Assembly: GCA_036504215.1 (NCBI GenBank) | Contig: DASXVO010000020.1 | Span: 1-55,606, forward strand | DNA length: 55,606 bases | From: Vicinamibacterales bacterium | GTDB lineage: Bacteria > Acidobacteriota > Vicinamibacteria > Vicinamibacterales > Fen-181 | Direction: 5' to 3' | Shown: positions 49,380 through 55,606 of the stretch, one piece after another | Layout of the letters: the number at the start of each line of letters is the position of its first letter | Numbering within the stretch: position 1 is the stretch's first letter | The notes under the pieces: generated by a model | Seen by the model: only the letters and a program-made list of their open reading frames with translations | What the model was told of the DNA's origin: nothing | Database searches by the model: none | Position numbers and translations under genes: made by a program

Positions 49380-49741
49380 CAGCCACGAACGACTCGCCCC
49401 CAACGAGCGTCGCGGGGTGTGAAGCCTTCACACCCGATCCCGACAGACTGGTCGGGCGGGCCGATCCGCGACTGACGATTCCGACACCGCGCCGCCGAAA
49501 TTGGCAGACGCGATTGCCTCGGCCAACCAGACCGAACGTGGACGCGGACCTGGCAGCGCGACCGGCCACTACCGACCGGGAATGTCGATGACAGTGGCTG
49601 ATTGGCCGTCGCCCAGATCTGGCACAGCCCATGCTCAGAGTCCAGCGCCCCCCGCTCTGGCCCAGCCTGCCCCCGGCCGGCCGCGTACCTCGTCAGATCG
49701 CTGCATCCCGGGAGACGACCGTGGCGAGGAAAGGCGCGCCG
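49380..49741. other. Intergenic region with a 10-bp perfect palindrome at 49415-49435
   Basis: GGGTGTGAAG at 49415-49424 is followed by one C and CTTCACACCC at 49426-49435. It lies 36 bases past the DUF4337 stop and could terminate its transcript, but there is no U tract and the loop would be too tight unless the inner bases open. It may instead be a protein site for the cytochrome gene at 49742. The rest of the 360 bases shows nothing I can support. Confidence 0.5.
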
Positions 49742-51532
49742 ATGAGAACGGGATTGGCCGCGGTCATGGCGCTGGCGCTGTTCGCCGCGACCCCCGCACG
49801 GACCATGGGCGCACCCCAGGTGCGCGTGTCGCCTGGTCCGCTCTCTGCCGCGCACGCCAAGCTCGACGACCTTGCAAACTGCGGGCGATGCCACGATCCG
49901 GCCCGCGGGCTGGCAGCCGAGCGCTGCCTTGCCTGTCACAAGCCGATTGCCGATCGAATCGTGCGCAGGAAGGGCGTGCACCGCGGAGTGACCGACGACT
50001 GCCGGCGGTGTCACACCGAGCACCGTGGCGTCGACGGCGATCTGCGGCGCCTCGACCGGCAGACGTTCGACCACGCTGCCGAGACCGGCTTCGTGCTCGA
50101 CGGCCAGCACGCGCGAAGCGGCGTCACCTGCACCTCCTGCCACAAGAGTCGCAGCTTCGTCGACGTCCGATCCGACTGCGGCTCGTGCCACGCCGACGCG
50201 CACAAGGGCACGCTCGGGCGAACCTGCACGCCTTGCCACCGGACGACGGTTCCATTCAAGCAGACGCGGAACGACTTCGACCACGCCGGCGCGCGGTTCG
50301 TCCTCACCGGGGCGCACCTCGTGGCGGCGTGCGAGAAGTGTCACGCCGGTGGCGTGTTTCGCGGCCTCAAGTTCGAGGATTGCTCGGGCTGCCACAAGGT
50401 CTCTCACCGTCGGTCGCTGGGGCCGACCTGCGGGTCGTGCCACGTCACCGAACGGTGGGCGACCGCCGCGCGCGGGTTCGAGCACGCGAAGGCCGGTTTC
50501 GCGCTGGCCGGCGCGCACGCGAGGATGGCGTGCGCGAAGTGTCACGTGGCGGGCGTGCGGACCCCGCTGGCGCACGACCGATGCGCCGCCTGCCACGCGG
50601 ACGCGCACCGCACCAGCGTGCGAGAGGACTGCCACAAGTGCCATGACGAGGAGAGCTTCCGGAAGGCCAGCTTCGATCACGGGGCCCGGACGGGGTTCGC
50701 ACTCGCCGGGCGGCACGAGGGGCTCCCGTGCCGCAAGTGCCACACGGGGCTGTCGGCCCCGGACGTGCCGCTCGCCCTCAAGGTGCTGGACTTCCGCGGG
50801 GCGACCGGCCGCTGCGCGTCGTGTCACAGGGACCAGCACAAGGGCGAGTTCGGTCTCGTGTGCAACGCATGCCACGGACCGGCGACTTTCAAGGCCGCAG
50901 GGTTCGTGCACCCGCGTTCACCCGGGTTCTTCGCGGGCCGACATCAGGGGTTGGCGTGCGTGCGGTGCCACGTGCGCGCGTCCGATCCTCGCGGCGCCCG
51001 CATCGAGCCGGTGTCCGGCCGGGGGCAGGCGCTGCCGCCATCGATGGCCTGCAGTGGGTGTCACGTGGACGTGCACTTCGGCCAGGTGGAGGCGCCGTGC
51101 GAGCGATGCCACGCAGTGGATGCCGCGAAGTTCGCGCCCACCCGCTTCTCCCACGACGGCGGATCGTTCCGGCTCGCGGGCAGGCACGCGAGCATTGCAT
51201 GCGCGAAGTGCCACCCTCTCCAGACCGCCGTGTTCCCGGCTGGCGCCGGGACGGCCATGCGGCTGAGGCCGGTGGCGCGAGACTGCCGGTCCTGTCACCA
51301 GGACCCGCACATGGGCCAGGCGGATCCCGATTGCGCGCGGTGCCACACGCTGACCTCGTTCACACTGGCCGCCTACGATCACTCGGGCCTGGACGACCTG
51401 TTCGGCGTGGCCACGCACGCGCACCTTCCGTGCCGCGCCTGCCACAAGGTCGAGACCGGCCGGTTCCCGGCGGGCTGGGGCACCGCGATGCGGCTCAAGG
51501 TCGGCCGAACCTGCCTCGAATGTCACCCGTGA
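49742..51532 (+). CDS. 23-heme c-type cytochrome built from repeated three-heme modules
   Basis: Encodes 596 residues from the ATG at 49742 with AGGAAAGG before it; signal peptide about 1-23, so exported and heme-loaded in the periplasm. It has 23 CxxCH motifs, the first at residue 47 (CGRCH) and the last at 591 (CLECH). Three hemes form an N-terminal unit; then six modules start at residues 109, 179, 247, 311, 388 and 469 and a shortened one at 545. Each reads F/Y-x-H...F-x-L-x-G-x-H....CxxCH......CxxCH-x-D-x-H....CxxCH, so every module carries three hemes and extra His for axial ligands. This is the plan of a molecular wire. No membrane span apart from the signal peptide is seen. Its stop faces the NHL operon, 75 bases away. 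Confidence 0.94.
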   Translation: MRTGLAAVMALALFAATPARTMGAPQVRVSPGPLSAAHAKLDDLANCGRCHDPARGLAAERCLACHKPIADRIVRRKGVHRGVTDDCRRCHTEHRGVDGDLRRLDRQTFDHAAETGFVLDGQHARSGVTCTSCHKSRSFVDVRSDCGSCHADAHKGTLGRTCTPCHRTTVPFKQTRNDFDHAGARFVLTGAHLVAACEKCHAGGVFRGLKFEDCSGCHKVSHRRSLGPTCGSCHVTERWATAARGFEHAKAGFALAGAHARMACAKCHVAGVRTPLAHDRCAACHADAHRTSVREDCHKCHDEESFRKASFDHGARTGFALAGRHEGLPCRKCHTGLSAPDVPLALKVLDFRGATGRCASCHRDQHKGEFGLVCNACHGPATFKAAGFVHPRSPGFFAGRHQGLACVRCHVRASDPRGARIEPVSGRGQALPPSMACSGCHVDVHFGQVEAPCERCHAVDAAKFAPTRFSHDGGSFRLAGRHASIACAKCHPLQTAVFPAGAGTAMRLRPVARDCRSCHQDPHMGQADPDCARCHTLTSFTLAAYDHSGLDDLFGVATHAHLPCRACHKVETGRFPAGWGTAMRLKVGRTCLECHP

Positions 51533-51607: not shown

Positions 51608-52729
51608 TCAGGGCAGCGACGCCGGGATGCGTTCGAACAACTGGATCCGCTTGTTCACCTGCTCGCTCACGAGAATGAGCCGGCGGGCGCGATCCACGGC
51701 AATGCCGGCGGGGAGTTGCATCTGCCCCGGCCGTTCCCCGAGTTCTCCCACCCACATCAGCGGCTGGCCGTCAGTGGTGAACATCTGGAAGTTGTTGAAG
51801 TCGGAGTCCACGACGTACACGACATTCTCGGCGTCCACGGCGATTCCCTTCGGCCGCCTGAACTGTCCGGGGCGGACGCCAAGGGATCCGAAGCTCGCGA
51901 TCACGTGCAGGTCGACGTCGAACACTTCCACCCGGCAGTTCATGGTATCCGTCACGTAGACGCGGCCGTCGGGACCGCTGGCGACGCCCGTCGGGAAATT
52001 GAACTCGCCCAGGCCCGTGCCACGCCGGCCGACGGTTCGAAGCAGTCTGCCGGAACTGAGTTCGAAGACGAGCAGCGCGTGCCGCCGAGAGTCGACGACG
52101 TACAAACGGCCCCGGGTATCGTCCACCGCGAGCCCGCTCGGGGCGACGAGTTCCGCCCGCTGGCCGATGGCGGTCCGGAAGCCGAGGTCGGCACCGAAGA
52201 CGAGGATCCGACCGAGGCCGCTGTCGCCCACGTAGATGTTGTTCGACGCGTCCACCGCCAGACCGACCGGCACCCGGAACATCGCCTGGCCCGACTTTGC
52301 CCCGATGGCCGTGAACGAGCGCCGCTCCGCGTCCATGACGAAGACGGCGGCCTGGGCCGTGTCGCTGACGATGACCCGGCCGAAGCCGTCCACGGCGACG
52401 CCAAACGGCTTCATGAAGCCGTTCGCGTTCCGGTTCTCGCCGGCTAATCGGTCCTTCCCGAGCAGCGCCTCCTTGAGCGACATCGTCTTGGGCTTGCGAA
52501 CGGCCCCGACGTCATCACCGCCGGCATACGTCCTGACGTAGCGAATTCGTGGTTCGTCGGGAGGTCCCGGCCACACGGTCTGAACAGGCGTCGTCCTGAG
52601 ATCCGGCGCCGGGGCCTTCCGCTCGGAGGCGGCCATCCCAACGAGTCCCACGAATAGAAACGCCACGAGCGGCAGTTCCTTCCGCAGTGCGAGGTTCGTC
52701 GTGTCTTGTTTGTCGTGGCTCATCATCAT
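51608..52729 (-). CDS. NHL-repeat protein with N-terminal membrane anchor
   Basis: Encodes 373 residues from the ATG at 52729 (GGGGAG 9 bases before); two more ATGs follow at once. A hydrophobic helix at about 20-35 (LPLVAFLFVGLVGMA) is an uncleaved anchor or signal peptide. A WPGPPDEPRIRYVRTYAG segment leads to six or so NHL repeats (about 95-370), e.g. NGFMKPFGVAVDGFGRVIV and GEFNFPTGVASGPDGRVYV, which form a beta-propeller for protein or ligand binding. It is the third gene of the NHL-cytochrome-NHL unit and is clearly homologous to the first. A binding or scaffold role with the cytochrome is inferred. Confidence 0.88.
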   Translation of the reverse strand: MMMSHDKQDTTNLALRKELPLVAFLFVGLVGMAASERKAPAPDLRTTPVQTVWPGPPDEPRIRYVRTYAGGDDVGAVRKPKTMSLKEALLGKDRLAGENRNANGFMKPFGVAVDGFGRVIVSDTAQAAVFVMDAERRSFTAIGAKSGQAMFRVPVGLAVDASNNIYVGDSGLGRILVFGADLGFRTAIGQRAELVAPSGLAVDDTRGRLYVVDSRRHALLVFELSSGRLLRTVGRRGTGLGEFNFPTGVASGPDGRVYVTDTMNCRVEVFDVDLHVIASFGSLGVRPGQFRRPKGIAVDAENVVYVVDSDFNNFQMFTTDGQPLMWVGELGERPGQMQLPAGIAVDRARRLILVSEQVNKRIQLFERIPASLP

Positions 52730-52771
52730 CCTGTCGCTCCCCAACGCCGGCGCGTACGCGCTCGCGAGTCG

Positions 52772-54613
52772 TCAATGACAGCCCGAGGCCGTCGTGCAGT
52801 TGCTCATTTGATATCCGTTCGGCGACGCCGCGGCCGTGAACGCCGTGATCCGGGCCGCGCCGTTGTTGAAGGGGGCCCGATCGGAGCTGAGCGCGATCAG
52901 GAACGGGCGGAAGCTGCCGTGCGGGGAGGCCGAGTGACACGCCTGGCACGGGCGCGACGCGTGGCTGCTGACGTTGTGGACGGTGTTCGTGCTTCGGATC
53001 GTCGACGCGCTGTGGCAGTTGAAACAGAACCCGGTAGCCACCGATATCGTCGGGCTGGTGGTGTTCCAGGTGGCGTTGGCGAACCGGAGCATGTAGGCGT
53101 TGGTCGAGCCGTGCGCGCCCTGCGGGACCGAGGCCCCCGTCGTCTCGTTGTTCCCGTGGCAGTCGGTGCAGTACATCCTCGTCGCGCTCGTCGTGGTATT
53201 CCACGGGGCAAGAAGGTTGGTGGCCGGCACTCGCAGGTGGGGCGGACCGACGACCGGGTGGTAGCTCCGGTTGTTCGGATTGACGGCGGCGGCGACGTCG
53301 GTTTCCGGACCGCCCGACGGGGCGTTCGGCGGCGTCGGGCCGAATGCGTACGACGAGTGGCACTTGAAGCAGATCTGGTATTCGCGCGCCGCCGAACCAC
53401 TGATCGTATAGCCGGACTGCGACGCAGAGGTCATCGGGTAGGTGCCGGTCAGCGGGAGCGCGGCAGGGTACGTGGCCGGCTCCACGCCAGAGACGCCCGC
53501 AAGCACCCCCGAGGCAATCGAATTGACTCCCGATGCGTGCAGCCCGGATGAGGCGCCGTGCGAGTTGTGACAATCCGCGCAGTCCACGTGCCGCCGGGCG
53601 CCGGAGAAGTTGGACGGCGAGGTGCGGACCTCGGTCGAATCGTGGACGATGGTCGCGGTCGACGTCTCGAGGGGGTGTCTGTAGGTCCTGGCGAACACCG
53701 GCGCGAGGTTCTTGGCGGCCACCGCCGTGCTCCCGTGGCACTGGAAGCAGACGTCGCGCTGATTGACGGCCTTCAGCAGGCGTTCTGCCTGCGGCGCCGA
53801 GTGGGGGCGATGGCAGGCCTCGCAGCCGTTGTCGCCGACCGTCCCATAGCCGGTGTGTGCACCCAAGCCGGCGATGCCGCCCGTGCTCGCCGTCGTGTAA
53901 CTCTTCGTCGACGTGGCGTGCGAGGACGACGTCCACGACCAGCCGCTGCCGCTGCGCCGGTGGCACGTCACGCACAGGGCCGATCCTTGATTCACCTTCA
54001 CGAGGAACTTGCCTGTCGTCGAATCGAGTCGCTGACTGTGCGGGTCGTGGCAGGCGACGCACTGAACCATCCGCGTGCCGGACTCGAGGCGCACGGCGTC
54101 GCTCGACGGCGGATCGACGACCTCCGTGTTCGCCGGGTTTCGAGCGAACGACACGGGGTGGTCGTTGGACAGGTCGGTCCCGAGACTGGCAGTCGCCGGA
54201 ACGAACGGTCCTCCGGCCATCGCGATGGTTCCGTTGTTGACGGTCGCGTTCACGGCGATGGTACCGTCATGGCAACTGAGGCACAGCTTGGCCGATCCCG
54301 ACGGCTGTGGAGCGCTCGTGCCCGGGAACGTGTTGAATGTCCCCGCGGTCGTGCCGGACTGGTAGGAACTGCTGCCGTAGGTCGTGTAGCTGGCGGCGCT
54401 CGGCGCATGGTTCCAGAGCTGGCGTGCCGGCGAGGCATTGTGCGGCGTGTGGCAGAAGACACACGGCTGTGTCTCCAGCGTCGCCCGGCTCGCGGCGCCG
54501 CCAGTCACCGAGAGGTCGTGCTTGGAGCCGACCACGTCGCTCGGCTTTCCCTGGCCGCCCGCGACCGTCGCGGCGAGGACGGCCGCGATCGCGACCGCTC
54601 CGGCGCGCCTCAT
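52772..54613 (-). CDS. Multiheme cytochrome c3-family protein (11 CxxCH plus one CX5CH)
   Basis: Encodes 613 residues from the ATG at 54613, preceded by GAAGG inside the end of the upstream gene. Signal peptide about 1-20. Eleven CxxCH motifs: CVFCH, CLSCH, CVACH, CVTCH, CEACH, CFQCH, CADCH, CFKCH, CTDCH, CFNCH, CQACH. Several continue as CHxPH or CHxSH (CVFCHTPH, CVACHDPH, CEACHRPH), the doubled-CXXCH style of cytochrome c3-like and extracellular electron-transfer proteins. The protein ends in CTTASGCH, a CX5CH form that might bind a twelfth heme or none. Long Ser/Thr/Gly-rich linkers separate the hemes. It is the middle gene of the unit, 7 bases after the first NHL gene and 42 before the third. 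Confidence 0.92.
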   Translation of the reverse strand: MRRAGAVAIAAVLAATVAGGQGKPSDVVGSKHDLSVTGGAASRATLETQPCVFCHTPHNASPARQLWNHAPSAASYTTYGSSSYQSGTTAGTFNTFPGTSAPQPSGSAKLCLSCHDGTIAVNATVNNGTIAMAGGPFVPATASLGTDLSNDHPVSFARNPANTEVVDPPSSDAVRLESGTRMVQCVACHDPHSQRLDSTTGKFLVKVNQGSALCVTCHRRSGSGWSWTSSSHATSTKSYTTASTGGIAGLGAHTGYGTVGDNGCEACHRPHSAPQAERLLKAVNQRDVCFQCHGSTAVAAKNLAPVFARTYRHPLETSTATIVHDSTEVRTSPSNFSGARRHVDCADCHNSHGASSGLHASGVNSIASGVLAGVSGVEPATYPAALPLTGTYPMTSASQSGYTISGSAAREYQICFKCHSSYAFGPTPPNAPSGGPETDVAAAVNPNNRSYHPVVGPPHLRVPATNLLAPWNTTTSATRMYCTDCHGNNETTGASVPQGAHGSTNAYMLRFANATWNTTSPTISVATGFCFNCHSASTIRSTNTVHNVSSHASRPCQACHSASPHGSFRPFLIALSSDRAPFNNGAARITAFTAAASPNGYQMSNCTTASGCH

Positions 54614-54620
54614 CCGACCT

Positions 54621-55606
54621 TCAGTGCGCATCTGGCCGACTGACATACTGAAACACCTGCACTCGCCCGTTGAGCGTGTCGGCGACGAAGATCCGGTTCG
54701 ACGAATCGATGTGCAGGGCGCTCGGCAGCGAGAACTCGCCGGCCGCCGTTCCGCTCTGCCCAACGACGAGCAGCAGGGCTCCGTCCTGACCGAAGATCTG
54801 CACGACATCGTGCATCGCCTCGGCGATGTAGATGTGGCCGTCGGAATCCACGGCCACCCCTTTCGGCTTGTCGAAGTCGCCCGTGCCGTTGCCCCGCTTG
54901 CCGAACTCATGCAAGTAGGTGCCGTCGGCTGCGAACACCTGGAGCCGCGCGTTCATCGAATCGACAACGTAGAGACGACCGTCGCGGGCGACCGTGATGT
55001 CCGTCGGGTAGTTGAACTCTCCCGCAGCGGCCCCCCGGCGGCCGAAGACCTGCAGGACGCGTCCCCCTGGACTCAGCACCGTGATCTGGCACGCCAGTGT
55101 GTCCACAACGAAGAGGCGGCCGTCTGGCGCCACGGCGATGCCCGTGGGCCGCGAGAAGATGGCCTCGCCGTTCACGACGCCAAGTACCGTCTTCCGCTTC
55201 CCGTCCGGACCGTACCGGTAGATGCGCCGCTTTGCCGAGTCCGCGACATAGATGTCCTGATCGACGCCAACCGCCACGCCGACCGGCGACACGAACGGCG
55301 CCGGTTCCAGGTAGGAGTACTTGCGGGCGCCCACGTCCACCACGTGCACCATGCGCTGGTCGGGATCCGCAATCAGCAGGCGCCCCGCCGCATCCGTGGC
55401 GAGACCGCGGGGGTGCAGGAATCTGGGCTGGCGCCGTCCGCCCACCACGACGGCCAGCGCACGAGCGAGCCATGACCGGCCGGCGCCCACGTCGTGCGGC
55501 CCGCTGATCGCGGTGACGAATCGCACGCGGGCAGGATCGGGCGCGGCGGGCCAGACAGGTCCCTGCCCGGCCGGCGGTGACCACGCCGCGGAACCGGCGC
55601 CAACAG
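54621..55606 (-). CDS. NHL-repeat protein (5' end outside window)
   Basis: The frame is open from the right edge of the window (at least 327 residues). The first visible residues, PVWPAAPDPARVRFVTAISG, align with the TVWPGPPDEPRIRYVRTYAG of the NHL gene at 51608, so the GTG at 55526 is internal and the true start lies outside. Six NHL-type repeats follow (e.g. RFLHPRGLATDAAGRLLIA and GEFNYPTDITVARDGRLYVV), forming a beta-propeller. The stop codon at 54621-54623 is 7 bases before the ATG of the cytochrome gene. This pairs the protein with the cytochrome in one transcript. Confidence 0.9.
   Translation of the reverse strand, partial: VGAGSAAWSPPAGQGPVWPAAPDPARVRFVTAISGPHDVGAGRSWLARALAVVVGGRRQPRFLHPRGLATDAAGRLLIADPDQRMVHVVDVGARKYSYLEPAPFVSPVGVAVGVDQDIYVADSAKRRIYRYGPDGKRKTVLGVVNGEAIFSRPTGIAVAPDGRLFVVDTLACQITVLSPGGRVLQVFGRRGAAAGEFNYPTDITVARDGRLYVVDSMNARLQVFAADGTYLHEFGKRGNGTGDFDKPKGVAVDSDGHIYIAEAMHDVVQIFGQDGALLLVVGQSGTAAGEFSLPSALHIDSSNRIFVADTLNGRVQVFQYVSRPDAH

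Follow-up and report, generated by a model that had tools for sequence, protein, structure and literature searches.

A solitary 23-heme cytochrome gene in a Vicinamibacterales bacterium and its relationship to the periplasmic cytochromes of PCC3-type operons

Results

A 23-heme cytochrome built of three-heme modules

The window analysed here, a stretch of 55,606 nucleotides from contig DASXVO010000020.1 of a Vicinamibacterales genome (assembly GCA_036504215.1), carries a gene for a 23-heme c-type cytochrome of 596 amino acids (49742..51532, + strand). An earlier note made from the sequence alone had reported 23 CxxCH motifs in these 596 residues, and our recount of the translated frame confirmed this number; composition-preserving shuffles contained 0.26 such motifs on average and 3 at most. 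The wider motifs CX3CH and CX4CH were absent from the 596-aa translation. GC3 ranges from 0.83 to 0.90 along the gene. This normal codon use supports a real gene, together with a ribosome-binding-site-like GAGGAAAGG read from the sequence 7 nt 5′ of the ATG at 49742 (49726..49734, +) and a predicted signal-peptide-like N-terminus without a lipobox (residues 1–24; 49742..49813, +). Scans for promoters and terminators and an Rfam search returned no matches.

The protein starts with a feature that the earlier note did not contain, a separate three-heme cap at residues 30–105 (49829..50056, +) with CxxCH motifs at residues 47, 62 and 87 and invariant His at 38, 80 and 94, which is not a copy of the module. 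It is followed on the + strand by six modules of three hemes each (module 1, 50066..50275; module 2, 50276..50476; module 3, 50477..50671; module 4, 50672..50902; module 5, 50903..51145; module 6, 51146..51373) and by a half module 7 with two hemes, which ends at the stop codon (51374..51529, +). The heme plan is therefore 3 + 6 × 3 + 2 = 23. Every module follows the order FxH–GxH–CxxCH–CxxCHx3H–CxxCH and provides three hemes and three further His. The previously described build of six and a half three-heme modules was recovered with a strict pattern, which occurs six times in addition to the two-heme half module; in 2000 shuffles with fixed hemes, it was absent from 1974 and present once in 26. 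Module starts at residues 109, 179, 311, 388, 469 and 545 agree with the previous assignment, but the third lies at 246 and not at 247. An alignment of the modules with one another, as the earlier note had proposed, extends well beyond the CxxCH motifs: mean identity outside the heme Cys and His is 23.3%, compared with 13.7 ± 1.5% (maximum 17.8%) in shuffles that kept the heme motifs in place. Directly 3′ of the stop codon, a search in all frames for a remnant of a 24th heme or a second cytochrome gave no heme motif.

The modules belong to a known domain family. Cytochrome_C7 (PF14522) matched the protein in 10 stretches with 98.4 bits at a curated cut-off of 24.8, and single modules scored 16–29 bits against the same profile, while TIGR04257 (nanowire_3heme) just missed its cut-off (35.6 vs 40). 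The nearest solved structure found with a family profile was 3OV0 (E 2.2e-11, over four modules; E 4e-13 with a two-module profile), which is GSU1996, whose hemes, 12 in number, form a line of 12 nm. The proposal that the repeat may define a family of its own could thus not be upheld, because both Cytochrome_C7 and GSU1996 match and the name 'nanowire' is already in use; the module is a Cytochrome_C7 unit whose nearest counterparts are the four GSU1996 triheme domains. Matches to zinc-ribbon and LIM proteins found with phmmer (2dlo) were dropped as chance matches of Cys/His-rich sequences. AlphaFold2 models were of low confidence both for the full-length protein, with an alignment of the window protein, L046 and L047 (mean pLDDT 31, pTM 0.18), and for a target of two modules, aligned with 11 repeat rows (pLDDT 54, pTM 0.30), and a Foldseek search with this low-confidence two-module model gave no match at all.

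In eight homologues, whose identity to the window protein is 43–48%, none of the 23 CxxCH motifs varies, and exactly 23 of the 26 other His are likewise invariant; among the residues other than Cys and His, just 11% are invariant. Besides those of the cap, the invariant distal-type His are 111, 123 and 154; 181, 192 and 222; 248, 259 and 289; 313, 325 and 366; 390, 401 and 445; 471, 482 and 523; and 547 and 559. The window copy has kept all 92 heme-ligand residues, i.e. 23 Cys-Cys-His sets and 23 distal His. Since 23 further His are invariant alongside the 23 CxxCH motifs, every heme could be bis-His, the simplest reading of the sequences being one distal His per heme.

An OmcE-like cluster next to the cytochrome gene

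The 23-heme gene converges with a group of three genes on the opposite strand, all of which are possible partners only: an NHL-repeat beta-propeller gene (51608..52744, −), the gene of an 11-heme doubled-CXXCH cytochrome (52772..54610, −) and a second NHL-repeat gene (54621..55604, −), inside which the contig ends at 55606. The full-length OmcE filament subunit (7tfs, E 7.6e-25; 9yuq, 2.8e-21) aligns to residues 6–219 of the 11-heme protein (11 CxxCH, PF09699), which carries seven more hemes beyond this part. It could possibly be a filament subunit with an extension or a UetJ-like protein. In the order, homologues of it were confined to its own genome, with 59 others searched, and 21 others of 297 were found across the phylum. 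Four OmcE-like tetraheme matches (G072:C44:47412, G102:C27:48018, G191:C19:29996 and G247:C32:25277) each contain one TAG, which probably marks the regular end of a shorter gene.

Relatives of the cytochrome are encoded in a conserved operon

Our comparison with other genomes revealed a five-gene operon across the phylum, consisting of genes for an NAD/FAD/2Fe-2S reductase, a membrane protein, a 20–24-heme cytochrome (A), a 15–40-heme cytochrome (B) and a putative beta-barrel. The window protein is homologous to cytochrome A over its whole length. The operon, with fused or with two cytochrome genes, was detected in 31 of 396 genomes of the order and the wider phylum (E ≤ 1e-60) and also in a KSB1 MAG (L047). 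A scan of named genomes gave two relatives, and the relatives compared from outside the phylum were those of an Emticicia plasmid, the KSB1 MAG and alphaproteobacterial short forms.

In at least 20 loci, the homologues adjoin a membrane protein with two WX3HX13H motifs and SGXXG, and most also adjoin a second large cytochrome; the putative barrel gene comes next where the contig allows. The membrane protein motifs read WLEVH-x13-H, SGFVG and WHVFH-x13-H. Both motifs were present in 23 of the 27 homologues checked, including those of our genome, KSB1 and Emticicia. The exceptions are L053, which shows one motif owing to a mis-set frame start, and the short forms L056, L057 and L121, which do not have the full set. 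The putative barrel is an exported protein of about 440 residues that lacks TM helices and has an aromatic C-terminus. Pfam assigned neither this protein nor the membrane protein to a family, and our search for solved relatives of the membrane protein found none.

A second locus in the same genome, on contig 16 (L018:10104-14177), encodes a single frame of 1357 residues with 51 CxxCH motifs, the first half of which shares 46% identity with the window protein; the second half is of another repeat type. It stands in a row of genes for the NAD/FAD/2Fe-2S reductase, the membrane protein, the 51-heme protein and the exported protein of about 440 residues, with gaps of −4, 7 and 28 nt, and this fusion contains the only second-cytochrome region of the genome. 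Cytochromes A and B thus occur as separate proteins or fused, on contig 16 and in relatives. The window gene differs from the fusion, which continues into a second cytochrome and is part of a complete operon: in the window, neither a reductase nor a membrane protein, second cytochrome or barrel is encoded beside the 23-heme gene. Fused cytochromes were also observed in other families of the phylum, with 53 CxxCH at L103:5875-10893 (−), where the start of the frame is provisional, and with 51 CxxCH at L105:8200-11967 (+).

A tree built from 31 A proteins places the window copy among the fused proteins (support 97/91), on a branch that is longer (1.01) than any other in this clade. A 24th heme follows in its own clade, but the window protein ends after 23. 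Truncation of the gene, which the relatives with 24 hemes had brought up as a candidate, is weakened by the many A proteins of other families that stop right after the 23rd or 20th heme. The simplest reading is that the window gene is a duplicate which lost its second half.

An old chain and a conserved cap

The earlier note had suggested that the gene grew by module duplication. This view holds, yet the duplications took place long ago, as each module best matches the module at the same position in relatives. Compared with L048, the window modules are 41% identical to the same-position module and 31% to the other modules, with the relation holding in six of six rows; for L050, the values are 38% and 30%, and it holds in three of six. 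Heme counts of the relatives cluster at 20, 23 and 24.

Homologues of the cap with 7 hemes, encoded on alphaproteobacterial plasmids and in G030, have a flavin/2Fe-2S reductase and a membrane protein of short length as neighbours, without a barrel. L120, L121 and L122 from alphaproteobacterial plasmids as well as L056 and L057 represent a conserved three-gene unit of this kind, which lacks the barrel and encodes an FAD/2Fe-2S reductase, a membrane protein of about 230–300 residues ('iron reductase') and a 7-heme c3-type cytochrome related to the window cap.

Discussion

Our analysis assigns the 23-heme cytochrome, as judged by homology, to the family of PCC3-type periplasmic cytochromes, of which it is a real, conserved and modular but solo member. 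PCC3 was described by He et al. 2017 as a porin, an extracellular cytochrome, a periplasmic cytochrome with a median of 21 hemes and an inner-membrane protein (PMC5566968); the conserved inner-membrane protein of about 300 residues contains SGXXG and two WX3HX13H motifs, and the wires have 22–39 residues per heme (PMC5566968). In Gallionellaceae, the periplasmic cytochrome of PCC3 carries 21, 24 or 27 hemes (Hoover et al. 2023, PMC10734462), similar to the 20, 23 or 24 hemes in the A family. With about 25 residues per heme, the window cytochrome lies inside the PCC3 range, and its homologues are accompanied, as in PCC3, by a very large second cytochrome, by a membrane protein in which SGXXG and two WX3HX13H motifs occur, and by a putative barrel. 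The operon is accordingly classed as PCC3-type on its composition and motifs. Apart from these similarities there are differences: the window gene stands alone, whereas PCC3 is a gene cluster; the operon of this phylum usually begins with an NAD/FAD/2Fe-2S reductase; and in one clade both cytochromes are fused (41–53 hemes). In the part of the literature covered by our searches, we found no mention of a fusion of two PCC3 cytochromes. A 2026 metagenome study reported porin-cytochrome clusters with a 4–5 kb cytochrome, a porin and a ferredoxin-NADP reductase (PMC13264449), which by their description may be the same operon.

Two further systems resemble parts of the locus. GSU1996 (3OV0) consists of four triheme domains with a line of interacting hemes and one His-Met heme per domain, and it is described as a monomeric, periplasmic and capacitor-like protein which is thought to store electrons (PMC10138318). 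Both proteins are chains of c7-type three-heme domains in one polypeptide, and the window protein, with its signal-like N-terminus, is predicted to be periplasmic like GSU1996. They differ in that GSU1996 has 12 hemes instead of 23 and a His-Met heme in each domain, in place of which the window protein would have an invariant His for each of its 23 hemes. The Uet system comprises an undecaheme cytochrome (UetJ), NHL proteins (UetHI) and periplasmic triheme cytochromes (UetDEG) (PMC10734462), besides the tetraheme UetA, the isomerase UetB and the porin UetC. By this description, an undecaheme doubled-CXXCH cytochrome and NHL proteins likewise adjoin the window gene, and UetDEG are C7-type three-heme units like the window modules. 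However, UetDEG are separate three-heme proteins, in contrast to the single 23-heme chain found here.

We consider the window protein to be probably an exported periplasmic electron relay of the PCC3-like family, made of the cap and six and a half c7-type modules. Electrons would hop from end to end along a predicted bis-His heme chain. In the PCC3-like path of its relatives, they would pass from NAD(P)H or quinol via the flavin/2Fe-2S reductase and a two-heme b-type membrane protein to the 23-heme-type cytochrome A, with its cap at the inner membrane, and from there via a second cytochrome in or beyond the outer-membrane barrel to the outside; we infer both the periplasmic location and this direction of electron flow. 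By analogy with GSU1996, the wire could measure about 1 nm per heme and be roughly 20 nm long. Because a related cap occurs in the 7-heme proteins of the barrel-free loci with their flavin reductase and short membrane protein, the cap is the likely inner-membrane end, which suggests that it accepts the electrons there. The chain may then have grown outwards from the cap, module by module. The window copy, which lost or never had a second half, would probably act as a periplasmic bridge of its own. Perhaps it supplies the neighbouring OmcE-like cluster with electrons, a guess based on their adjacency at the contig end.

The preservation of all heme ligands despite the longest branch of the clade speaks for such a relay and at the same time against a decaying paralogue, i.e. 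a remnant of a fused 41–51-heme gene that was cut after the first half and is now drifting. Decay of function could account for the long branch and the missing 24th heme, and it would fit with the position among the fused proteins and with a gene that stands alone; with an open frame, normal codon use and many intact homologues in other families that likewise end after the 23rd or 20th heme, we regard it as very unlikely. The same isolation from conduit partners would also suit a soluble multiheme reservoir in the periplasm, which would buffer electrons in times without acceptors and have no fixed partner. Such a capacitor is in line with the description of GSU1996, the closest solved relative, as capacitor-like (PMC10138318) and with a second, complete conduit elsewhere in the genome. 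Yet the window copy has conserved the cap that is tied to an inner-membrane donor, which suggests that it still receives electrons from such a partner, and storage and relay can coexist. Such a reservoir seems unlikely to us. The extracellular, polymerised wire envisaged in the earlier note would have precedents in the solved multiheme filaments and an OmcE-like gene as its neighbour. The comparison did not support this view: the homologues hold the place of the periplasmic cytochrome in PCC3-type operons, a PDB search gave no sequence similarity of the 23-heme protein to OmcE, OmcS or OmcZ, and the resemblance to a filament subunit belongs to the 11-heme neighbour. We therefore regard a polymer subunit as highly improbable.

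A more far-reaching idea extends the relay model. In one clade, the PCC3 conduit might be a single polypeptide of 41–53 hemes, which would start at the inner membrane, pass the barrel and reach the outside, with NAD(P)H electrons supplied by a dedicated flavin/2Fe-2S reductase, and the window gene might be a fission product of it that was redeployed as a periplasmic feeder of the OmcE-like cluster. As a whole we hold this scenario to be speculative and rather doubtful. If the fusion is real, a cap, a periplasmic chain and a second chain in one polypeptide would fix the order of the parts across the envelope, and the PCC3 layout, so far a proposal based on iron-oxidiser genomes, could be tested with one protein.

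By itself, the window protein enlarges the list of very long heme chains by one, and the wider family matters more. With this family, the range of the PCC3-type system comes to include a phylum of soil and sediment bacteria, most of them uncultured, and the system gains a connection to an NAD(P)H-linked reductase. Moreover, the homologues offer a natural length series of 20, 23 and 24 hemes and, in the fused forms, of 41 to 53. In contrast to the old modules of the window protein, a second cytochrome at L048:10600-12453 consists of near-identical three-heme repeats of 74 residues (85–88% identical outside the heme ligands), which seem to be young, and its length seems to change quickly. Furthermore, the Emticicia oligotrophica plasmid pEMTOL02 (L119:9881-14772) carries the operon with a membrane protein, a 23-heme cytochrome beside a 40-heme cytochrome and a weak barrel match (25 bits), and this PCC3-like cluster is a sign of plasmid-borne transfer.
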